From Hyphomonadaceae bacterium ML37 (GTDB lineage: Bacteria > Pseudomonadota > Alphaproteobacteria > Caulobacterales > Maricaulaceae): 64,000 bases of DNA. Positions 26,184-40,143 of the stretch are shown one piece after another (the first letter of the stretch is position 1; every line of letters begins with the position of its first letter). Position numbers and translations under genes: made by a program. The stretch is taken from the NCBI GenBank assembly GCA_027627685.1, contig CP091241.1, positions 705,149 to 769,148 on the forward strand. Direction: 5' to 3'. The notes under the pieces were generated by a model. It saw only the letters and a list, made by a program, of their open reading frames with translations, had not been told where the DNA came from and did no database searches.

Positions 26184-27749
26184 ATGACCTCGGTGTCGGC
26201 CTATGCCGCGCCTCTTGGTGCCGTGTCGAGTGCACAGGCCTCGCAATCGTCCGCGGTTGCGGCATCGACCTCCTATGGCCAGCGCCTGTCCTTTTCCATG
26301 GATGCCGTTTCGGCCATCCAGGTGACCAACGCGCTCAGCCAGCGCCTCAACCATCTCAACCAGATCCGTGCGCTGGAACGCGCTGACGGTCTCGTCAACG
26401 TATCCCTCGCCGCCGTAGAGGCCATCGAGGACACGCTCATGGAGATGAAGGCGCTGTCGGTGCGCCTGCAGGACGCAAGCCTGTCAGAGGATCATCGCGC
26501 CAAGCTGGCACAGGAGTATGGCGCGCTCATCCCGCGCATCAACCAGATCACCGAAATGGCGACATTCGGCGGGCGCAATCTCCTCAACCCGCAAGCGGCC
26601 AGCCAGTCAGGCGATGTCATCGTGCAAGGCGGGATGAGCATCAACGCTGTGGATTTGCGGCCAGGTATTACAGGCGCGATCAGCGATATCGATATTCTGG
26701 TCCCGCCTGCGCTGGAAAACCTGCGCGCTGCCTTTGACTTCGAAGGCAGCCTTAACCCTGTGGCCTGGACGAGTGGTTTTGGCGGCGCGGTTTTGCAGCC
26801 CTTGAATGGAAGCGCTAATTTTTCTTTTGACGGGCCAAATAAAGATCAGTCCGCCAATACAGAAGGGCCATTAATTTATGCAAATAATTCTTATTCGATT
26901 CCTCATTATTTAAATCGAACTATGTCGGTCAATTTAACGATTGATTTAATAGACGATGAATCGGATATAACAAATTTTATTTATTCTAGGTATAATTGGA
27001 CAGATGGATCTGCTAGATACGTTGGATTAATGACGCAAAAAAAGACCGGCCATATTTTACTAATGGTGGGGGCGCAAGAGTTCGTCTTTTCAACAGGTGG
27101 CACACTCAAGCCTGGTGATTGGGCCAATCTCACCTTCACCCAAAGTGGTGAGGGTGAAACGCGTGGAGATCTAAAGCTCTACTTTGATGGGGCGCTGATT
27201 GCGAGCATCAATGCACCGCTTCCAACCCAAATAGAGGATGGAGTCATCAGGCTGCACAATGGCCGCTTTAGCGATCTCGCAGTGTGGGACCGGGTTCTGG
27301 ATGGTCAGGAGGTGGCGCAGGCAGCAAATGCCATGAAGCGGGGGGTGCATAACTGGCGCCCAGAGATCACCACGGCGGATTGGGCCTCAAAGATGGCAGC
27401 CCTTGACCAGTCGCTGGGCAATGCCCGGCAGGTCGCGCAGCAATATGGCGGCGCATCGCGCTCCATCACGGCCCGGCTGGGTATGCAGCAGCGCATGACC
27501 GACATCATCGACGCAGGCGTGGCGCGGCTGGTCAATCGCGATATCGAGCGGGTGGGGGCGCTCCAGGTGGCGTCCCAGGTACGCACCCAGCTGGCCCAGG
27601 CCATGATGCAGACGCAGACCGGCATCATGAACGCTCAGGTCGGTCTCCTGTCCAACAGCCTGGCGCTCTTTGACTCCATCAATATCAGCGGGTTCACGCC
27701 GGGGCGGCTGAGGCCTTTATCCCCAGCCAGTCTTTCAGCTGAAACTTAG
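26184..27749 (+). CDS. Flagellin-like protein with LamG-like insert
   Basis: The 521-aa product has flagellin D0/D1 helices at both ends: residues about 60-150 (VEAIEDTLMEMKALSVRLQDASLSEDHRAKLAQEYGALIPRINQITEMATFGGRNLLN) and about 410-505 (SLGNARQVAQQYGGASRSITARLGMQQ to VASQVRTQLAQAMM). Between them residues about 180-400 resemble a concanavalin/LamG domain (GDWANLTFTQ, LKLYFDGALIAS, IRLHNGRFSDLAVWDRVLDGQEV). In flagellins the middle part is surface exposed, so this filament would display a lectin-like domain. The insert (about 26810-27080) is distinctly AT-rich, suggesting acquisition. No chaperone or other flagellar genes are nearby. Confidence 0.75.
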   Translation: MTSVSAYAAPLGAVSSAQASQSSAVAASTSYGQRLSFSMDAVSAIQVTNALSQRLNHLNQIRALERADGLVNVSLAAVEAIEDTLMEMKALSVRLQDASLSEDHRAKLAQEYGALIPRINQITEMATFGGRNLLNPQAASQSGDVIVQGGMSINAVDLRPGITGAISDIDILVPPALENLRAAFDFEGSLNPVAWTSGFGGAVLQPLNGSANFSFDGPNKDQSANTEGPLIYANNSYSIPHYLNRTMSVNLTIDLIDDESDITNFIYSRYNWTDGSARYVGLMTQKKTGHILLMVGAQEFVFSTGGTLKPGDWANLTFTQSGEGETRGDLKLYFDGALIASINAPLPTQIEDGVIRLHNGRFSDLAVWDRVLDGQEVAQAANAMKRGVHNWRPEITTADWASKMAALDQSLGNARQVAQQYGGASRSITARLGMQQRMTDIIDAGVARLVNRDIERVGALQVASQVRTQLAQAMMQTQTGIMNAQVGLLSNSLALFDSINISGFTPGRLRPLSPASLSAET

Positions 27750-30054: not shown

Positions 30055-30981
30055 TTAGTAGAGTCTGTTCGCCTTTCTTTCTGGGTTGATGTGGTTGGTC
30101 AAGGCCCGGTGAGCGGAGCTTGCGCGTAGCTCAAGCGAGCCGGGCCGGGGGTGACGGGTTCGCTCGGCGTAGACACAGGGCGCAAGCCCACCAAGCGCGG
30201 TGTGCGGACGCTGGGTGTTGTAGTCGATCCTCCACGCCTCGATCAGGCCGCGTGCTTCGTGTAGCGACGAGAACAGGTGCTCGTTCAGGCACTCATCGCG
30301 GAACCGACCGTTGAAGCTCTCCACGAAGGCATTCTGGGTAGGCTTTCCAGGTGCGATATAGTGCCATTCCACGCCGCTCTCTTTCTGCCAGCGCAGAAGC
30401 GCGTGACTGGTCAGTTCGGTGCCGTTGTCGCTCACGATCATGCGCGGCGTTCCTCGCTGCTCGATCAGACGATCAAGCTCACGGGCCACGCGCATCCCAG
30501 ACAGCGAGGTATCGACCACGACGGCCAAGGCCTCCCGCGTAAAGTCGTCGACCACGCATAGCGTCCGGAAGCGCCGCCCGTCTGACAGCGCGTCAGAGAC
30601 GAAGTCCAGGCTCCAGCGATGGTTCGCCGCCACGGGCAACAGGATCGGGCGCCGGGTTCCCACGGCCCGCTTGCGGCCACGCCGCCGCCGGACCGCCAGC
30701 CCTTCCTCTCGGTAGAGCCGGTAGATCTTCTTGTGGTTCGCATAAAGGCCCTCGCGCTCGAGCAGTATGCCCAGCCGGCGATAGCCGAACCGGCGACGCT
30801 CGCCGGCGATATCTCGCAGGCGCGTGCGCAAGACGTCATCGTCGCTTGAGCGCTTCTGATACTGGAAGGTCGATCGGTCCAGCTCTGCAAGGGCGCAGGC
30901 CCGACGTTCGCTCAGACCGTGCCGGGTCACCATGTGGTGCACGGCCTGGCGCTTAACGTCGGGCGTCAGAAGTTTTTTGCT
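30055..30981 (-). CDS. IS3-family transposase OrfB (read via -1 frameshift)
   Basis: The OrfB part reads [41 protein letters not shown] (helix-turn-helix), then the integrase core with DDE residues in [12 protein letters not shown] (Asp), [12 protein letters not shown] (Asp) and [19 protein letters not shown] (Glu). It lacks a good start codon. At the end of OrfA the mRNA has A-AAA-AAC, a standard -1 slippery site, which joins the two as an OrfAB fusion transposase. Both frames are intact. Confidence 0.9.
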
Positions 30982-31232
30982 GCGATGTCCTTCAGTGCTG
31001 CATTGTCCAGCATGGCATCGGCCAGAAGCCGCTTCAGCCGGCTGTTCTCCAGCTCCAGCACCTTCAGACGCTGGGCATCGGACACCGACATCCCGCCGAA
31101 CTTGGCCTTGTATTTGTAAAAGGTTGCGTCGGAGATGCCGTACTTGCGGCAGACCTCCTTCGTGCTCACACCGGCGTCGTGCTCGCGCAGCATGCCGATA
31201 ATCTGCTCTTCCGAATAACGGCTCTTTCGCAT
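30966..31232 (-). CDS. IS3-family transposase OrfA
   Basis: The 88-aa protein carries the IS3 OrfA helix-turn-helix ([47 protein letters not shown]) and a leucine-rich helix ([28 protein letters not shown]). It ends at the A6C slippery site used to make OrfAB. Confidence 0.92.
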
Positions 31233-31293
31233 GGTCCATCCTCTCCTCGATGGACTCTACCATTCAATGGCCGGAATTCACGGGGCTGGGTCA

Positions 31294-31373: not shown

Positions 31374-31922
31374 CTAACGCCCGTGGGTCAAAGCAGCCTG
31401 CGTGCCGGAGTTACGCTGATTGATCGACGACGAATGCGGCCCAGGAGGCTGCCCGTCTTGGGTATCGAGGAGCGGCCATCCGTTGGCTTGCTGTGGCGCG
31501 GTGCCAGCCGAAGCCGTCCCTCCCGAGCCGCCAACGCTGGCCGTGGCGATTTGGCGACCATAATTGCGCTGGTTGATGACAAAGGTTGAGTTGCGCGCGC
31601 CGGAAATCTCGACGAAGTTGCCGATCGCTACGGCATTGAGCGTGGTCTGGCGCAAGGAGGAGGGGCCCATGGCCGCAACGCCGCCAGAGAAACTCGCCGC
31701 CGAGCTCGAGGGCGCTGCGCGCCGCCCGCTCATGTCCACAATCTGCCCGTTGACGACGACGCGATTACCCTGCTGGTCGCGCGCCGGCGGGGTATAATGG
31801 GTGCTCATGCTGCCGGGTGCCATCCCGTAGGGCTGGAGCATCGGGTCGCCCTGTTGCGCATGGCTGACGCTGGCCGATACCAGCGCGAGGGCGATTGCAG
31901 AAAGGGCTGTGAACATTCGCAT
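31374..31922 (-). CDS. hfaA: HfaA-like holdfast anchor protein
   Basis: The 182-aa protein has a signal peptide (MRMFTALSAIALALVSASVSHA) and a curlin-like motif TTLNAVAIGNFVEISGARNSTFVINQRNYG, with a second partial repeat near the end (SSSINQRNSGTQAALT). This fits HfaA, a small curli-related anchor subunit of the Caulobacter holdfast attachment complex, exported through HfaB and placed on the outer surface at the pole. The start at 31922 has AGAGGATAA upstream; a longer frame begins at 31991. In Caulobacter hfaA lies directly before hfaB; here it is 3.6 kb away on the same strand, so the operon has been split. The symbol is by similarity. Confidence 0.65.
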   Translation of the reverse strand: MRMFTALSAIALALVSASVSHAQQGDPMLQPYGMAPGSMSTHYTPPARDQQGNRVVVNGQIVDMSGRRAAPSSSAASFSGGVAAMGPSSLRQTTLNAVAIGNFVEISGARNSTFVINQRNYGRQIATASVGGSGGTASAGTAPQQANGWPLLDTQDGQPPGPHSSSINQRNSGTQAALTHGR

Positions 31923-32065
31923 GCGAGTTATCCTCTTTGATAGAGGAAGTGCTCGCAAGCCGTGTGCCAAGGCCGGGCCGGGGAGGCACACTGTGGCAAT
32001 CAGGCCGGCCAGTGCCGGGTCCCTGAGGCGACCGGCCCCTGGCGCGGACAGTTGCTTCTAGACGA

Positions 32066-33675: not shown

Positions 33676-33722
33676 GTCTCCTCTTGTTCGTCACACCGCC
33701 GGAGATGGCGGGCAGAGGAGAC
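33676..33722 (-). promoter_or_regulatory. Leader hairpin covering the ribosome site of hfaD-like gene 2
   Basis: On the mRNA, GTCTCCTCT (from 33714-33722) is complementary over 9 bp to AGAGGAGAC (from 33676-33684), which is the Shine-Dalgarno 4 nt before the start codon. Inside, CCGCC and GGCGG (33696-33700 and 33707-33711) form a second stem. The same structure occurs at 38236-38282. Confidence 0.75.
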
Positions 33723-34012
33723 GCCGCAAGATAGCAGCCAGTTTGCAATGGTTGGATATTAATCATTTATAATATTATAATAATATTTTTCAATTAATTA
33801 TGTTCTTAATGCGGCTTTAATGATAACGGGCGGGATTGCCAGAATTAATCGTCGTGGTGCGGGCGCTCAATAGGTGAGTGTTTTTGGCACAGCCCCTTGA
33901 GCCGGATGCGCGCGCCTGCACGCGCGCGCTGCACCGCAGGGCGGCAAGAGCGCAATCCAGAAACCGGGCACCGGTCTTCGGACAAGCGGCGCTCCGGATC
34001 AAATGCTCAAAG
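33723..34012. other. AT-rich promoter region of hfaD-like gene 2
   Basis: About 290 bp between the leader and the end of the 372-aa member 3 gene. Bases about 33740-33820 are very AT-rich. No clear promoter boxes, and the block conserved between 25133 and 38365 is not found here. Confidence 0.45.
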
Positions 34013-35134
34013 CTAAACCTTCACCTCGTCCTCGGGCAGGCTTGCGGCCAGCGAGTTGAGGATTTCGAGGGCTTTTTCTGATGGTAGCAGGCTCCAGTTG
34101 ACGCCGCGCATGGCATAGGCCCAGAAGTCCGTGCAGTGATTGATGATGCTGGCGTTCTCGCCGACCTGGACGAACATGGACTGGGCGTTCCTGAGGAAGT
34201 TTCCCAGATGCCTTGGATCGCGGTCTTCGGTGAGTTTGCGGATCACCTCTTGATAGCCCATCAAAGCCTCAGCCAGCGCGATCATCGAATGATTAAGGGT
34301 GCGCACGATGTGGTGTGAGCGCAGGCGAACCGTGCGCATGATATCGGGACCCCGGTCGATGGGCTTGATCTGGGACAGGGTGGACACGATGTCGGAGAAA
34401 AAGCCGGAGGATTCCTCCAGCTTCCACTGATAGTACAATATGCCCTTCCAGGCGAAGATGGCTTCCTGGAAATCGCCCTTGCTCATGCTCATCGCCTCGC
34501 GCAGCGGGTCGAGCCGCTTGTCGTCACGGCTGGCCAGGAAAGCGCTGGCAAGCCGTGACGACGCTTCGGCTGCTCCTTCTGGCAGGGCCAGGGCGGTGAT
34601 CTGGGAGAGAGATTTGGCGACCATTTCGCGCAATTCCCTCAGGTCGCGATCGGAAAGGTCGACCAGACCCACCGGCAGCTCGATGCCGTCAAATCGCGCG
34701 CGCTCGGAGATCAGGAACGGATCGAAGGAGGGAATGTCATTGAGGATGAACAGAAGTTTCTCATCGCGGGCATAGGCATCGTCTATTGAGCTCAGTCCGA
34801 TAAACTTCGTTATTTTCTCTGTAAAATAGCGCTCGTCCACGAAAATCGATGCGCCGCCCTGGTTAAGATCAGATGCCGCAAAAGGAAACACCAGTTTGGT
34901 TGATGAGCCATTCTGATGATCAAAAATATCGCGCTCATAGGCGCGGATCGAGTGCTTTATGATGAAGGCGCGGTTGAGCATGCGTGTCTGGAAAATGCCT
35001 GCGGACGCAGATGGATTCTGGCCAGTCTCCTGGAAGCGCTCGATCAGGCGCGGAATATCCAGAATGCGGCTGGTCGAGCCATACAGACGCGCATGCAACA
35101 GGGACCGGACGCCGGGATTGCGAAAGCCACTCAT
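34013..35134 (-). CDS. Unknown protein, 372-aa family, member 3
   Basis: The 373-aa product is almost identical to member 2 (16547-17683), apart from a patch at about 34775-34915 (KLVFPFAASDLNQGGASIFVDERYFTEKITKFIGLSSID against KMIF...KMLKFCGLNMID), where codon use is also AT-richer, and a different C-terminal end. This mosaic suggests gene conversion. It lies between hfaB and hfaD-like gene 2 on the same strand, the only context clue linking the family to surface attachment. The second ATG (35134) is used, as for member 2. Confidence 0.8.
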   Translation of the reverse strand: MSGFRNPGVRSLLHARLYGSTSRILDIPRLIERFQETGQNPSASAGIFQTRMLNRAFIIKHSIRAYERDIFDHQNGSSTKLVFPFAASDLNQGGASIFVDERYFTEKITKFIGLSSIDDAYARDEKLLFILNDIPSFDPFLISERARFDGIELPVGLVDLSDRDLRELREMVAKSLSQITALALPEGAAEASSRLASAFLASRDDKRLDPLREAMSMSKGDFQEAIFAWKGILYYQWKLEESSGFFSDIVSTLSQIKPIDRGPDIMRTVRLRSHHIVRTLNHSMIALAEALMGYQEVIRKLTEDRDPRHLGNFLRNAQSMFVQVGENASIINHCTDFWAYAMRGVNWSLLPSEKALEILNSLAASLPEDEVKV

Positions 35135-35548
35135 TGAAACCATGCCTCCCGGCCAAGGCGGGACTGTGACGCCTGCACTGTCGTCAAGCCAACGGGGCGG
35201 ATGCGGGCGCACGGCTGCGGCCTTCGGGCCGGGCACCGGGTGTCTGCCGAGGTTCGCAGAGGGTGTGCGCAGGATAAGCGCGGGTTGCGCCGCGTGCACT
35301 CAGGGCAGCGGCTAGAGAGTGCAGGTGCATTCATGGCTGACACTTGAAGATGATGGCTGCGGACCTGTCACCGTCGGGCGGCGCGCCCGGGTTCAGTCAT
35401 CATGCCGCATGAATCTTTCAGAACCCTCACCACCCCGCGGCCCGGGCGCTGGCGCGGTGCCGCTGCAAGTCGGGCGCGCCTCTTGGTCCGGAAGGCACCG
35501 GGTCCTGCCTTGCCGCGCGTCGGCCGGTTGCGGATAGGCGGGCGCTGG
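35135..35548. other. Gene-free stretch between hfaB and the 372-aa gene
   Basis: About 410 bp after the hfaB stop. It must hold the promoter of member 3. Frames across it look like GC shadows. No strong terminator is seen. Confidence 0.4.
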
Positions 35549-36829
35549 TCAGCGCGATACCGCCAGCCTGTACGGGCGGCAATACTGATCGCGGGCCGAT
35601 AGCTGCTCACACAACTCGCGCGCGGCGTGCTCATCGGGCAACGGGCCTGCAATCAGGCGGAAGAACTGCCCCTGGGAACTGGCACCGCGTAATTCCACCT
35701 CGTCTACCCCGGGGCTCAAACCCGCAAGCAAGGGCCCATACGCCTGCATCAGGGCGGCCCAGCCCGCGCCCATCTGCTCACGGCGGCGATAGGATTCCAG
35801 GTGCACCGAATAGAGATGGGTCGCTGGTGCCGCCGGGGCAGGTGTCTGCGCGTTCACCGCAGCCGTGGGCTGGGCTTCGGCCGGAGTTTGGGCCGGCGGC
35901 GCGCTGACTGGTGGGGCGGCCTGGGCGGTCATGGCCTGGGCGTCTGCGCCGCGCCGCTCGAACGTGCCGCTGGCGGCGATGGCGCGGGCGACCTCTTCAC
36001 CCAGACAGTCGACCGGATCGAGATTGTAGAGAGCGGCCACGAACTCGAACACGGCGCGATCAATCATGCTCCTGACTGCGGTCTGGACGGGCTCAAGGGA
36101 GCGGCCGCCGGCATTGATGTCGATCACGCCCCCGGTGAGGAACTGGAAGACGCCGCTCTCCACCTCCCGGCCAACAATCTGTTTTCGGAAGGCGCGCACG
36201 GACAGCACATCACTTGAGCGCACGTCGATAAGCCGCAGATCTATGCCGACATCGATAACGAAGTTATTGACCCCAAGGGCTCCTGCGCCGCCCGCGGCGG
36301 AATCGCTACCCACAAAAACGTTCGCGCCCCGCGAGCGGATATTGGGGTTGAACTCGGTCAAACCGCCCACGATGTAGAGGTCAGCGCCCTGCATCTGCCC
36401 GAGTTGAACCTCACGCAACTGTGTCTCGCTGTCCCGGACAAGCCCGCTCTGGGTGTATCCTAGCTCGGCTTGAATCACGCCCATATCGAAGCGTTCTACG
36501 ACCCTCATGCCGGCGTCCGCGAGCGCGGTCATGGCCATCAGGGCGGCGCCCTGGGTCAGCCGGCGCCCGGAAAAATAGTCGTTCGCTCCCGTGAAATCCG
36601 TGATGTGACCGACCGCGATGCGCGGGGGCGGGAAGGCTTGCGTGCGGGCATGGACCGCAAGGCACTGCAGGGCATCGGTGTATTGCGTCTCAAGCACAAC
36701 TTCCGCCGGCCCCCGCAGTGGCTGGACAGGCTCAGACATACCAGATGTGGCGCAGGCCGACAGGCTCAATGCTGCGAGCGCTGAACCGAATGCCGATTTG
36801 GCGCGTCGCGTTGAGCTGCGAATGTTCAT
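35549..36829 (-). CDS. hfaB: HfaB: CsgG-type outer-membrane lipoprotein with SPOR domain
   Basis: A lipoprotein signal ends LSLSAC (lipid on Cys26). Residues about 50-265 match the CsgG fold: PRIAVGHITDFTG, QGAALMAMTALADAGMRVVERFD, GADLYIVGGLTEFNPN, VGIDLRLIDVRSSDVL, and a conserved end (VFEFVAALYNLDPVDCL). CsgG forms the outer-membrane export channel for curli; HfaB does this for the holdfast anchor proteins HfaA and HfaD. After a Pro/Ala-rich linker, residues about 335-425 form a SPOR-like domain (LYSVHLESYRRREQMG, FFRLIAGPLPDEHAARELCEQL), which binds denuded peptidoglycan at division sites. ATG at 36829 has AGGGA at proper distance; an in-frame ATG at 36838 overlaps the upstream stop. Confidence 0.8.
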   Translation of the reverse strand: MNIRSSTRRAKSAFGSALAALSLSACATSGMSEPVQPLRGPAEVVLETQYTDALQCLAVHARTQAFPPPRIAVGHITDFTGANDYFSGRRLTQGAALMAMTALADAGMRVVERFDMGVIQAELGYTQSGLVRDSETQLREVQLGQMQGADLYIVGGLTEFNPNIRSRGANVFVGSDSAAGGAGALGVNNFVIDVGIDLRLIDVRSSDVLSVRAFRKQIVGREVESGVFQFLTGGVIDINAGGRSLEPVQTAVRSMIDRAVFEFVAALYNLDPVDCLGEEVARAIAASGTFERRGADAQAMTAQAAPPVSAPPAQTPAEAQPTAAVNAQTPAPAAPATHLYSVHLESYRRREQMGAGWAALMQAYGPLLAGLSPGVDEVELRGASSQGQFFRLIAGPLPDEHAARELCEQLSARDQYCRPYRLAVSR

Positions 36830-36834
36830 CTTGG

Positions 36835-37200
36835 TCATTCCCTTGCATCCGACGGGTCCCATTTAGGACAAAAAGCTTTCCATTGCGTGTTGAAGCGGGG
36901 CGGGCGGCTGAAGCCGTGCCTTTGCTGCTCGATCAGCTGATGTGTCAGCTCATGCGGGATCAGGCTGATGCTGTACTGTGCGCCCATGACGATGACGCCG
37001 CTCTCTTCAATCTCCATCTGAGCCAGCTCGATCTCGGATCGAATGCAGCGGCAGGCGACATATTTGAGCAACGGCGCACCCTCGCGGGCTTCAGCGAGCA
37101 AACGGACCACCCCCGCACACGCTGGCAGGTCCCCGAACCAGGCGTGGTGGCAGGTGAAAACCTCTGACCTTTTCAGCGAGATCACAGCCCGTCTCCGCAT
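36835..37200 (-). CDS. Unknown 121-aa protein coupled to hfaB
   Basis: The frame has strong GC3 codon use and ends in an ATGA overlap with hfaB, so translation is probably coupled. It is Cys-rich in its first half (FTCHHAWFGDLPAC, VACRCIRSE) and contains IPHELTHQLIEQQ; HELTH fits the HExxH zinc-peptidase motif, but the short length and absence of other peptidase features leave this open. No signal peptide is seen. It could act in the assembly of the anchor complex. A frame on the other strand is also open (36718-37167), so the call is moderate. Confidence 0.5.
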   Translation of the reverse strand: MRRRAVISLKRSEVFTCHHAWFGDLPACAGVVRLLAEAREGAPLLKYVACRCIRSEIELAQMEIEESGVIVMGAQYSISLIPHELTHQLIEQQRHGFSRPPRFNTQWKAFCPKWDPSDARE

Positions 37201-37223
37201 CCGATTGTCAGGTTTGGGGAAAG

Positions 37224-37252
37224 CCGGGCGACGGACTTGATGCGCCGCCCGG
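37224..37252 (-). terminator. Terminator-like hairpin after hfaD-like gene 1
   Basis: CCGGGCGACG (37224-37233) and CGCCGCCCGG (37243-37252) pair over 10 bp with one mismatch and a 9-nt loop, directly downstream of the gene at 37266. The following T-run on the minus strand is short (CTTTCC), so termination may be partial and leave some read-through into hfaB. Confidence 0.6.
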
Positions 37253-37265
37253 TTTCCGGTTCCGC

Positions 37266-38231
37266 TTAGCGCGGCAGGTTGTTGATGCTCACCGAGTTGC
37301 CGATGGCCGCGGTGGTCAGCGACACGGCTCCGGTCACATCGCCCAGCTGGATATTGGCGGTGGCGCCGGTATAGGCGTTGTTCATCTGCTGGCTGTTGAT
37401 GTTCAGCGAGGCGGTTTCCGGCAGGGTAGACACGCTCAGCGAGTTGGAGATCGCCGCCGTGGTCGAGCTGAAATCGCCGTTGATGTCGCCCACGTTCACA
37501 TTCGACCAGGCCTGCGGGTCATAATTGGCCCACTGGGTGTTGGTCAGGCTGAACTGGGATGAATCGCCGATATCATAGGACGCCGAGTTGGCGATGGCGG
37601 CGGAGGTGAAGTTCACCGAGCCGGTGACATTGTTAAGGTCGGCGTTCAGGAAGGACTGAACATCGCCGTGGAAGTGCTGGAAGTTGGTGGCCTCCATATT
37701 GCCGCTCCCGGTGACCGAGAGCGAGTTGGCGATGGACGCCACCGTGCCGTCGATGGCTACATCGCTGGCGTCGGGGGCCTGGATGTCGGAGGCGTCAATG
37801 GTCAGGTCGGAATGGAACTGACGGTTCCACACCGCGCGCTGGTCGTTGTTGACGGTGCTCAGGCCCGAGGCGCCCAGGGCATCGACCTCGATGGACGCCG
37901 AGTTGCCGATGGTGGCCACCGTGGCGTTAAGCCCGCCCAGAGCGTCATGAGCGTTGATATAGGCACTGGCCGAGGCGTTGTTGTCGGCGCGCTGGACATT
38001 GTTCAGCGTGGTCACACCACCCAGCTCGGCGCTGAACGAGTTGCTGATCGCCGCCGAGGTCAGGCTCACCGACTCGCTCACCGAGTTGATGTCGGCATTG
38101 AGCTGCGCGCGCGTCTGGGCCCAGTTGTTCTGGTTGTTGCGCACATTGTTGGTCTGGGCTTCCGCAGTGGCGGCGAGACCCAGCATGGACACCGAAGCCA
38201 GAAGGCCCGCGGTCATCATCTGACGATACAT
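37266..38231 (-). CDS. HfaD-like curlin-repeat surface protein, copy 1
   Basis: A 321-aa paralogue of 32706-33671 with the same signal peptide (MYRQMMTAGLLASVSMLGLAATAEA) and six repeats of about 48 residues ending in AAI(S/G)NSxS. Differences gather in the variable faces of the repeats (such as HSDLTIDASDIQ, FQHFHGDVQ, MNNAYTGATANIQLG), while the AIGNS strands are kept. It is first in the order hfaD-like, 121-aa protein, hfaB, and is therefore the better candidate for the HfaD equivalent. Secretion through HfaB to the outer surface is inferred. Divergent from the EAL gene with a long shared upstream region. Confidence 0.7.
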   Translation of the reverse strand: MYRQMMTAGLLASVSMLGLAATAEAQTNNVRNNQNNWAQTRAQLNADINSVSESVSLTSAAISNSFSAELGGVTTLNNVQRADNNASASAYINAHDALGGLNATVATIGNSASIEVDALGASGLSTVNNDQRAVWNRQFHSDLTIDASDIQAPDASDVAIDGTVASIANSLSVTGSGNMEATNFQHFHGDVQSFLNADLNNVTGSVNFTSAAIANSASYDIGDSSQFSLTNTQWANYDPQAWSNVNVGDINGDFSSTTAAISNSLSVSTLPETASLNINSQQMNNAYTGATANIQLGDVTGAVSLTTAAIGNSVSINNLPR

Positions 38232-38235
38232 GGTT

Positions 38236-38282
38236 GTCTCCTCTTGTTCGTCACGCCGCCGGACATGGCGGACAGAGGAGAC
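38236..38282 (-). promoter_or_regulatory. Leader hairpin covering the ribosome site of hfaD-like gene 1
   Basis: GTCTCCTCT and AGAGGAGAC (38274-38282 and 38236-38244, minus strand) form a 9-bp stem that includes the Shine-Dalgarno; an inner CCGCC/GGCGG stem lies at 38256-38260 and 38267-38271. The ghost copy at 25004-25050 has GTTTTCC and GGAAAC instead, that is changes on both sides. Confidence 0.75.
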
Positions 38283-38364
38283 GTCGCAATTTGAAAGCCA
38301 AATATTGGCTCAACGTAATTAATTATTAAATAAAAGTAAATGCTTACACAAAGGAAAACCGAGC

Positions 38365-38385: not shown

Positions 38386-38748
38386 CTGCGCGGCCGGACT
38401 TTTCAGCTGCGATCTGGCACATGCCCGCCTGCCGTGTATCGTTTTGCGACAATCGCCTGCCGGCCACCCAAGCCCGTTTGCGGTCCTGACGCCTGCCTGA
38501 TGTCAGGGCGGACTTGCGAGGGTGATCGCGCAGGCGAGGCAAGCCGTCGATACTGTCAGGCACGCGCGAACTGGCAGGCGGCGCGAAACTCTGCAGGAGC
38601 GCACATTCGCTGCCGGTCGCTCACGCTTGCTTTGGAAATAGCTTCCCTACTCAGAGAGGGTTGGGTGCATGTTCCTCTCCCTCCGCCATACACCCGTCGC
38701 TTTATTAGCGGATCGGGTTGGCTTTCAAGCCATTCCCTTCATGGCCGG

Positions 38749-40143
38749 ATGGGGTACACGCGCTTTCGCGCCGAGCGCGCCCGCAAGCAATCGCTGGCGG
38801 CGGCGCTCTACAATGACGCAGAAACCCAGCTGCCGTCGCGCACCGCCCTTGAGCGCGCCGTCGAGCAGCTCGAGGCCGAAGGCCGGCCCAGCTATGTGCT
38901 GGCCATCGAGGTGAACCGCCACGAGCACCTGCGCGCCGCCCTTGGCTTCGCCGCGTTTGCGACGCTTCTGCGATCACTCGCCGAACACCTGCGCAAGGAG
39001 TACATACCCGGTCATGTCGGCATCATCGCGCCGGGTGTTCTGGGCGTGCTGCTCGACGCCGACGCGATTCACGACGCGAACGACGATGCCGGCGGCGACA
39101 CGCTGGGGGCGCTGGTCGAACGGCTCAGAACCCGCCTGGCCGCGCCGGTGCGGGTCGGCGAGATCGATGTGGATGTCACGACGACCTGTGGTGCGGCGCT
39201 TCACAGCCTGGACAAGCACGAAGAGTCCGCCTTCCGCCGCGCTGTGATTGCCCTGGACCAGGCTCAGACGGCGCGCCGGCCCTTCGCCATGTATGATCCG
39301 ATCCTCTTCGGCGATCCGGCGCAGAACCTCACCTTGATGAGCCGCCTGCACTCGGCGATCTCGAGCGGGGATGTGACGCTGCATTACCAGCCCAAGCTCA
39401 ATCTGCGCACAGGCCGCTATGACAGCGCCGAGGCGCTGATGCGCTGGACCGACCCCGAGCGCGGCTATGTTCCGCCGGACGCCTATATTCCGTTCGCCGA
39501 GCAGACAGGCCATATCCGCGAGCTGACCGAATGGTCCCTGATGCGCGCGCTGGTCGATCAGATGGCGCTGAGCAAGGCCGGCTTTCCAATGTCGATTGCG
39601 GTCAATATCTCCAGCGTTCTGTGCACGGACGATGATTTTGTCGCCAAGGCGGTCAGGTTTGCGGGCCAGTCCTCCTCCGGCCTGATCTACGAAGTGACCG
39701 AAAGCGCGGTGATGCACGATATCGATAAGGCGATCCGCTCGCTTGAGCTCTGGTCCAAGGCCGGCGCCAAGGTGGCGATTGACGATTACGGCACGGGCCA
39801 GTCCTCGCTGGTTTATCTGAAACGCCTGCCGGTGCAGGAGCTGAAGCTGGACCGGGCTTTCGTCAAGGATGTGGCCAATAGCAGCAAGGACCGCACGCTG
39901 GTCCGGTCCACGGTCGACCTGGCGCATAATCTGGGGCTGCGCCTGACGGCCGAAGGGGTCGAAGACAACCAGACGCTCAATGTCCTCAAACTGCTCGGCT
40001 GCGACAGCGCGCAGGGCTTTGGCCTGTGCCGTCCGATCAGTCTCATCGACCTGGTCGGCTTCCTGCAGCGCCAGGATGAAGAGATGGCCGCGCCGCAAGC
40101 CCCGGACGCCGATGTGTCCCGCCAGGCCGGACGAGCTGAATAA
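38749..40143 (+). CDS. Degenerate GGDEF plus EAL domain protein (c-di-GMP phosphodiesterase)
   Basis: The 464-aa protein has a degenerate GGDEF domain (residues about 15-175; TQLPSRTALERAV resembles TGLPNRRALE, but the catalytic loop is GIIAPGVLGVLL) and an EAL domain (about 195-435) with the residues expected for hydrolysis: DSAEALMRW, VNISSVLC, YEVTESA, AIDDYGTGQSS, KLDRAFVKD, TAEGVED, QGFGLCRP. It should lower c-di-GMP, with the first domain perhaps sensing GTP. No membrane segment. ATG at 38749 is used; the frame is open upstream. It is divergent from hfaD-like gene 1, fitting a role in attachment control. Confidence 0.85.
   Translation: MGYTRFRAERARKQSLAAALYNDAETQLPSRTALERAVEQLEAEGRPSYVLAIEVNRHEHLRAALGFAAFATLLRSLAEHLRKEYIPGHVGIIAPGVLGVLLDADAIHDANDDAGGDTLGALVERLRTRLAAPVRVGEIDVDVTTTCGAALHSLDKHEESAFRRAVIALDQAQTARRPFAMYDPILFGDPAQNLTLMSRLHSAISSGDVTLHYQPKLNLRTGRYDSAEALMRWTDPERGYVPPDAYIPFAEQTGHIRELTEWSLMRALVDQMALSKAGFPMSIAVNISSVLCTDDDFVAKAVRFAGQSSSGLIYEVTESAVMHDIDKAIRSLELWSKAGAKVAIDDYGTGQSSLVYLKRLPVQELKLDRAFVKDVANSSKDRTLVRSTVDLAHNLGLRLTAEGVEDNQTLNVLKLLGCDSAQGFGLCRPISLIDLVGFLQRQDEEMAAPQAPDADVSRQAGRAE

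Follow-up and report, generated by a model that had tools for sequence, protein, structure and literature searches.

Why should the ribosome site of a gene be complementary to a stretch of its own promoter? The question is raised by two hfaD-like genes in a 64,000-nucleotide (nt) stretch of Hyphomonadaceae bacterium ML37 (contig CP091241.1, positions 705,149 to 769,148; hereafter the window). A first-pass annotation had noticed a hairpin over the Shine-Dalgarno sequence in their leaders, and proposed a selected RNA structure that holds translation off until melted, bound by a protein or opened by a small RNA. The hairpin itself is there as described: in both leaders, the 5' arm GTCTCCTCT and the Shine-Dalgarno arm AGAGGAGAC, 9 nt each and 29 nt apart on the minus strand, are 100% complementary and enclose an inner CCGCC/GGCGG stem (Table 1). 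In relatives of these genes, the pairing of the upstream arm with the Shine-Dalgarno sequence looks selected, judging from sequence statistics, and the arm lies within a putative sigma54-type promoter. Our tentative answer, which we hold at somewhat less than even confidence, is that the leader is a promoter-embedded translation lock, by which the surface protein would be made only from sigma54-started messages.

The window leaders carry a -24/-12 element of the form TGGC-N7-TTGC, and the genome contains rpoN (Sigma54_DBD, 229.8 bits), as expected for a sigma54 promoter. The outer 5' arm occupies positions -11 to +1 of the predicted promoter, between the -12 element and the putative start point; a sigma54 transcript should therefore lack the arm. 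In the Caulobacter crescentus start-site map, RpoN motifs lie at -35 to -25 from mapped starts (PMC4287350), a spacing that would likewise put the arm upstream of the start. For gene 1, the 9-bp arm is predicted to sequester the Shine-Dalgarno sequence: the predicted openness of this site is 0.00 for a transcript beginning at -11 or -36, and 0.64 for one beginning at +1. Pieces of 76 nt from the two leaders fold with z scores of -2.46 and -2.05 relative to shuffles, but as the two sequences are almost duplicates (96% over 90 nt), they amount to about one observation. Their arms are asymmetrical about the inner stem, with gaps of 2 and 11 nt. Rfam 15 at the gathering score gave no matches in the window or in the loci L052, L067, L050, and L126, and no title or abstract listed in a literature search, with most subscription literature outside its coverage, describes such a leader.

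Relatives of the hfaD-like genes were found in 15 of 137 genomes of the family and in 48 of 398 genomes sampled from the order, the window's own genome being counted in both. They occur in 20/131 genomes of the genus of G383 and 11/75 of the genus of G274, which we take to be Brevundimonas and Caulobacter, and the whole group is presumably Caulobacterales. From these genomes, 68 leaders were extracted, all before signal-peptide-like starts. For the outer arm, 51 leaders with a sigma54-like -24/-12 element were kept, of which 34 were nonredundant; the other 17 were left out because of a score below 11 or a predicted leader longer than 60 nt. In G002, G010, G377, and G457, a TTGC site of lower score but closer to the gene was substituted by hand for the one picked by the rule; G002 and G377, whose locks are both weak, belong to the 34. 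The filter for the inner stem was passed by 47 of the 68 leaders, giving 28 nonredundant ones. In a test of 28 nonredundant leaders, the -24/-12 match exceeded same-leader shuffles at p < 0.05 in 24, and the distance from the putative +1 to the start codon was 30 to 54 nt. Of the 68 leaders, the eight from the Aquidulcibacter group lacked a promoter element under the rule; at all eight named loci of this group (L052-L057, L059, and L062), the fibre gene has an hfaA-like gene about 2 kb upstream, and this neighbour carries a sigma54 element. The family tests are permutations made without a tree.

To quantify the outer-arm pairing, the duplex energy between the 12 nt from -11 to +1 and the last 16 nt of the same leader was compared with permuted pairings. 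The mean over the 34 leaders was -7.71 kcal/mol, against -5.42 kcal/mol (standard deviation (s.d.) 0.36) for the permutations (z = -6.4). Dropping the window's gene left the excess in place (z = -5.9), as did dropping three more strong cases along with it (z = -4.6) or reducing the set to 60% nonredundancy (24 leaders, z = -4.9). It was also kept under within-clade swaps (p = 1e-4 overall; 0.0018, 0.0002, and 0.015 in strata of 12, 11, and 11 leaders), and shuffling the spacer removed it. Duplexes of -8 kcal/mol or lower were present in 15 of the 34 leaders (5.7 expected, highest permutation 14); the corresponding figures were 23 at -6 kcal/mol (13.3 expected, highest 23) and 7 at -10 kcal/mol (2.2 expected, highest 8). 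There was no excess of arm matches against coding sequence in the 34 leaders, and no significant excess in 70 unrelated genes taken from the window and from named loci (z -0.1 to -1.6, lowest p 0.051). At most control positions that do not overlap the arm the signal faded, the exceptions being 30 upstream (p = 0.024) and 6 downstream (p = 0.028); 8 upstream gave p = 0.056, and the positions 4 upstream and 3 downstream, which overlap the arm, were low as expected. The arms themselves diverge widely, reading GTCTCCTCT in the window, TCTTCTGTG in G440, AGACTTCTC in G483b, GTATTC in G561, and GTTCTC in G579.

Folding predictions point the same way. Mean openness of the Shine-Dalgarno sequence in the 34 leaders was 0.24 for transcripts from -36, 0.32 from -11, and 0.45 from +1, and foreign upstream sequences from -36 gave 0.36 (s.d. 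0.025; lowest of 60 sets, 0.305). Between +1 and -36, 15/34 leaders lost more than 0.3 in openness and none gained as much. An earlier reading, in which the outer arm was unreal since it lies inside the promoter, was overturned by the spacer shuffles and the own-Shine-Dalgarno permutations. The matching of each arm to its own ribosome site, together with paired changes across relatives, is thus in line with the annotation's view that the pairing element is selected.

Within the window's own genus alone, the evidence for a selected hairpin is weak. A 111-nt leader query matched three places in the genome at E 0.001, namely, both hfaD-like leaders and a ghost copy, whose reading frame holds about 10 codons similar to the hfaD-like family before the resemblance ends; the ghost was excluded from the nonredundant set. 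The first-pass annotation had read a concerted change of both ghost arms as support for a selected structure. One of the nine outer pairs is indeed a true double change (C-G to U-A) and two are now G-U, but one outer and one inner pair are broken, and the ghost piece folds no better than shuffles (z = +0.73). Covariation on a six-leader alignment was not significant, with one pair changed on both sides and 159 of 500 shuffles reaching the observed value; the ghost was therefore rejected as proof of covariation and cannot carry the claim by itself. The inference from paired change to selection holds only with the wider family, where it is significant. On reading, the leaders of G002 and G010 have no GTCTCCTCT arm.

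The leader as a mobile or widely reused element was also considered and is not supported: strong matches among the 137 genomes were confined to G000 (the window's genome), G001, and G012. Short weak matches occurred in nine of the 137 genomes; that in G010 is the hfaD-like family's own leader, and the other eight looked, by eye, coding or unrelated. A 22-nt leader pattern with up to three mismatches was found in both leaders and at three weaker sites in the genome. Separately, a block GACTAAT ... AATTTAC.CTCGGT recurs in similar form in four copies (upstream of 38300 and of 25068 in the window, and in L005 and L016), roughly 110-155 nt ahead of the start codon, and is a candidate activator site.

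The inner stem appears to begin near +1/+2 and to be kept in shape more than in sequence. Its sequences include CCGCC, CCGTC, TGCCG, GCCC, GGCC, TGTCGA, and others, and its 5' base lay at -1 to +2 in 21 of the 34 leaders with a wider search window. The mean stem score in the 28 nonredundant leaders was 12.86, compared with 10.65 (s.d. 0.55) for chimeras and 7.73 (s.d. 0.71) for shuffles, and none of 1000 chimera sets reached it. At least 4 bp were formed in 25/28 leaders (chimera average 17.2, maximum 23), and at least four perfect Watson-Crick pairs in 11 of the 13 leaders whose promoter region had not been inspected beforehand. Flagellin leaders were treated in the same way (30 of 54 matches read, 18 with a site, 14 nonredundant), and a stem at the same place scored 12.1 against 9.0 (s.d. 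0.8) for chimeras. In the 30 flagellin loci (L187-L216, from eight genomes), several sigma54-type leaders start, near +1/+2, with a short stem capped by an A-rich loop, such as GAGC-AAAAC-GCTC. Caulobacter flagellin mRNAs come from genes for a surface appendage that depend on RpoN, and their 5' UTR (untranslated region), bound by FlbT, is regulatory (PMC3930126 and PMC4347634); the flagellin leaders examined here likewise tend to start with a hairpin. The window leaders differ from FlbT-regulated ones in that they precede hfaD-like genes and their loops (AUGUCC/AUCUCC) are not A-rich, whereas many flagellin loops are; in addition, the arm match to the Shine-Dalgarno sequence is weak in flagellins (z = -2.0, p = 0.027 for the last 16 nt and 0.06 for the last 22). 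A stem at the predicted 5' end of the mRNA also recalls the stabilizing 5'-terminal stem-loops of ompA, papA, and bla with an added hairpin (PMC3997798). The inner stem probably protects the 5' end.

The hfaA-like genes offer a second gene type. In the window, the hairpin TCCTCT-ATCAA-AGAGGA, read by eye, straddles the putative start point of the hfaA-like gene and holds the Shine-Dalgarno sequence in its 3' arm. For hfaA-like leaders, 19 of the 54 hits listed, those whose site scored roughly 12 and above, were chosen by hand, and the arm match to the last 22 nt in the 12 nonredundant leaders gave z = -3.5. A control position 24 upstream gave p = 0.03 in a 15-leader set. Among seven hfaA-like leaders of the Aquidulcibacter group, with the helix written down from these same sequences, 3/10 outer pairs changed on both sides, and the covariation score was reached by 1 of 500 shuffles.

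How such a lock would work is suggested by the position of the arm. This arm should be missing from the sigma54 transcript, and phage T4 gene e (lysozyme) then provides the simplest model. Transcription from the sigma54-type promoter would begin at the foot of the inner stem or beside it; the resulting message would have a short hairpin at its 5' end, leave the Shine-Dalgarno sequence exposed downstream of it, and be translated. A transcript started farther upstream would include the stretch from -11 to +1, which could pair with the Shine-Dalgarno sequence beyond the inner hairpin and shut the site; such longer transcripts presumably exist and are silent. Translation would then be switched by where transcription starts instead of by melting, a protein, or a small RNA. 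In T4, as described in PMC3014915, the ribosome site of gene e, and also of soc, 49, and I-TevI, is shut in long transcripts, and late promoters just upstream of the gene e ribosome site give transcripts without the 5' part that are well translated. Here, by contrast, the promoter is of a putative sigma54 type, the genes are chromosomal, and an inner hairpin is added. Fold-back inhibition of the Tn10/IS10 transposase is built similarly, with outside transcripts locked and the gene's own promoter starting inside the structure; that is a mobile element guarding against chance transcription, whereas the genes here are ordinary ones.

Several results weigh against the lock. The excess of specific pairing is moderate: a generic pyrimidine/purine background is exceeded by about 2.3 kcal/mol. 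In predicted folds, the leaders had 6.7 pairs between arm and Shine-Dalgarno sequence against 5.5 in chimeras, narrowly above all 300 sets (highest 6.65); at least seven such pairs were present in 21/34 leaders (15.1 expected, highest chimera set 22), and the counts over each pair threshold were reached by some chimera sets. No such pair was found in 4 of the 34 leaders (G118, G123, G377, and G166). With the arm alone, from +1 to -11, just 9/34 leaders lost more than 0.3 in openness, as opposed to the 15 from -36, which indicates that sequence above the arm contributes. In the orthologue in G012, whose protein is 98% identical, two of nine outer pairs are broken without compensation. For the hfaA-like leaders, the match to the last 16 nt was weaker (z = -2.4), the arm-versus-coding control was also low (p = 0.014 with 12 leaders and 0.005 with 15), and 36 of 500 shuffles had at least as many doubly changed pairs as the Aquidulcibacter group. 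In the genuine hfaA, the promoter is present with hardly any arm (-1.9 kcal/mol). The source of the long transcripts is the weak point. The nearest upstream open reading frame (ORF) was divergent in 14 of 30 scorable leaders, taking the nearest ORF of at least 100 codons instead of annotated genes and setting aside four of the 34 with too little upstream sequence, and locks were not weaker there (mean -8.4 against -6.8 for co-directional loci, p = 0.23). Read-through from a co-directional neighbour is therefore not supported as a general reason for the lock.

If the main mRNA instead started upstream of both arms, the whole hairpin could act as a switch, held off until temperature, a protein, or a small RNA opened it, much as first proposed. 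The apparent selection on the pairing would suit this scheme, as would the predicted concealment of nearly the whole Shine-Dalgarno sequence of gene 1 (unpaired probability 0.00 from -11 or -36). However, it gives no reason for a -24/-12 element immediately preceding the arm or for the location of the inner stem at the putative +1, and the mapped RpoN starts of C. crescentus (PMC4287350) fall downstream of where the arm would be; we consider it unlikely. Equally improbable, in our view, is that there is no selected lock at all, and that a pyrimidine-rich spacer facing a purine-rich Shine-Dalgarno sequence had its match sharpened without function by template-switch correction of imperfect palindromes around the inner hairpin. 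The generic background does cover most of the pairing (-5.4 of -7.7 kcal/mol, 5.5 of 6.7 pairs), and locks appear and vanish between relatives, but shuffling the spacer, or swapping within clades, takes the excess away, and the window arms are asymmetrical about the inner stem. A still poorer candidate is the inner 5'-terminal hairpin alone, as an mRNA stabilizer or protein site with the outer match incidental; its presence in most nonredundant leaders and the high flagellin scores at the same place are in its favour, but it does not account for the outer-arm statistics. That the inverted arms act as DNA, either as a binding site or within the open promoter bubble, is very improbable, for although the arm coincides with the stretch melted in the sigma54 open complex, its sequence changes while complementarity is kept, unlike a protein site.

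The genes that carry these leaders are hfaD-like paralogues, and the genuine hfaABD operon lies elsewhere in the genome. They are not the holdfast anchor gene hfaD when judged by the curated cut-off for the HfaD family (NF037936), which is 100 bits; their scores are 24 to 31 bits. Genes above all three cut-offs for hfaA, hfaB, and hfaD cluster at approximately G000:C1:2463573-2466187, outside the window, with the genuine hfaD (G000:C1:2465045-2466172) scoring 147 bits. The window thus holds a second, paralogous hfa-like set, distantly related to all three parts of the HfaA/HfaB/HfaD anchor, the function of which is described in PMC6707917, but below the family cut-off in every case. Upstream of the genuine hfaA stands a perfect sigma54 element, TGGCACGAGGGTTGC (G000:C1:2463516-2463530, locus L184), with 31 nt from the putative +1 to the start codon; the leader of this hfaA reads, by eye, GTCTTC-AAA-GAGGAC over the Shine-Dalgarno sequence, inside the predicted transcript. 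The exact motif TGGCAYG-N4-TTGC occurs at two places in the genome, before this gene and before a gene read as flgF. In the window, a GGDEF/EAL protein (38434-40143) is divergent from hfaD-like gene 1, a possible link to cyclic di-GMP. A transposase-like protein with an rve integrase core (30055-31263) adjoins the hfaA-like gene, and a protein combining a flagellin N-terminal domain with a laminin-G-like one is encoded at 26184-27749; the flagellin search gave three further Flagellin_N matches in frames of more than 500 aa in the same genome.

Table 1. Coordinates, in the window, of the hfa-like genes and of the putative promoter and leader elements (all on the minus strand)
Feature	Position	Strand	Remarks
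hfaD-like repeat protein 1, 321 aa, TAAIGNS-type repeats	37266..38231	-	NCBIfam HfaD 31.2 bits, cut-off 100
Sigma54-like -24/-12 element TGGCTTTCAAATTGC, gene 1	38286..38300	-	score 12.5, p 0.017 vs leader shuffles
5' (anti-Shine-Dalgarno) arm GTCTCCTCT, gene 1	38274..38282	-	-8 to +1 relative to putative start point
Inner stem 5' arm CCGCC, gene 1	38267..38271	-	+4 to +8
Inner stem 3' arm GGCGG, gene 1	38256..38260	-	+15 to +19
Shine-Dalgarno arm AGAGGAGAC, gene 1	38236..38244	-	
hfaB-like gene (CsgG-type), between both hfaD-like genes	35549..36862	-	HfaB 271.9 bits, cut-off 300
hfaD-like repeat protein 2, 321 aa	32706..33671	-	NCBIfam HfaD 26.0 bits, cut-off 100
Sigma54-like -24/-12 element TGGCTGCTATCTTGC, gene 2	33726..33740	-	
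5' (anti-Shine-Dalgarno) arm GTCTCCTCT, gene 2	33714..33722	-	
Inner stem 5' arm CCGCC, gene 2	33707..33711	-	
Inner stem 3' arm GGCGG, gene 2	33696..33700	-	
Shine-Dalgarno arm AGAGGAGAC, gene 2	33676..33684	-	
hfaA-like gene, 182 aa	31374..31922	-	longer ORF 31374-31991: HfaA 41.6 bits, cut-off 50
Sigma54-like element TGGCACACGGCTTGC, hfaA-like gene	31955..31969	-	best-scoring such site in window, 14.5
Second possible lock, TCCTCT-ATCAA-AGAGGA hairpin, hfaA-like gene	31931..31947	-	read by eye
Ghost copy: -24/-12 element TGGCTTCGATATTGC, leader, start codon	24997..25068	-	

It is possible, although rather doubtful, that the lock is a device of the whole order, with one set of nucleotides acting both as the anti-Shine-Dalgarno arm and as positions -11 to +1 of a sigma54 promoter; translation would thereby be limited to sigma54-started messages. 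It would have arisen or been kept in several unrelated gene types (hfaD-like, hfaA-like, and perhaps flagellins) of the surface-attachment programme of Caulobacterales, its sequence drifting while the pairing is kept. If so, the choice of sigma factor would be tied to the translatability of the mRNA by a lock written into the promoter itself, and productive transcripts would be predictable from sequence. A trick described in phage T4 would also serve ordinary chromosomal genes, and would give these bacteria a simple way of silencing surface adhesins outside their developmental window.

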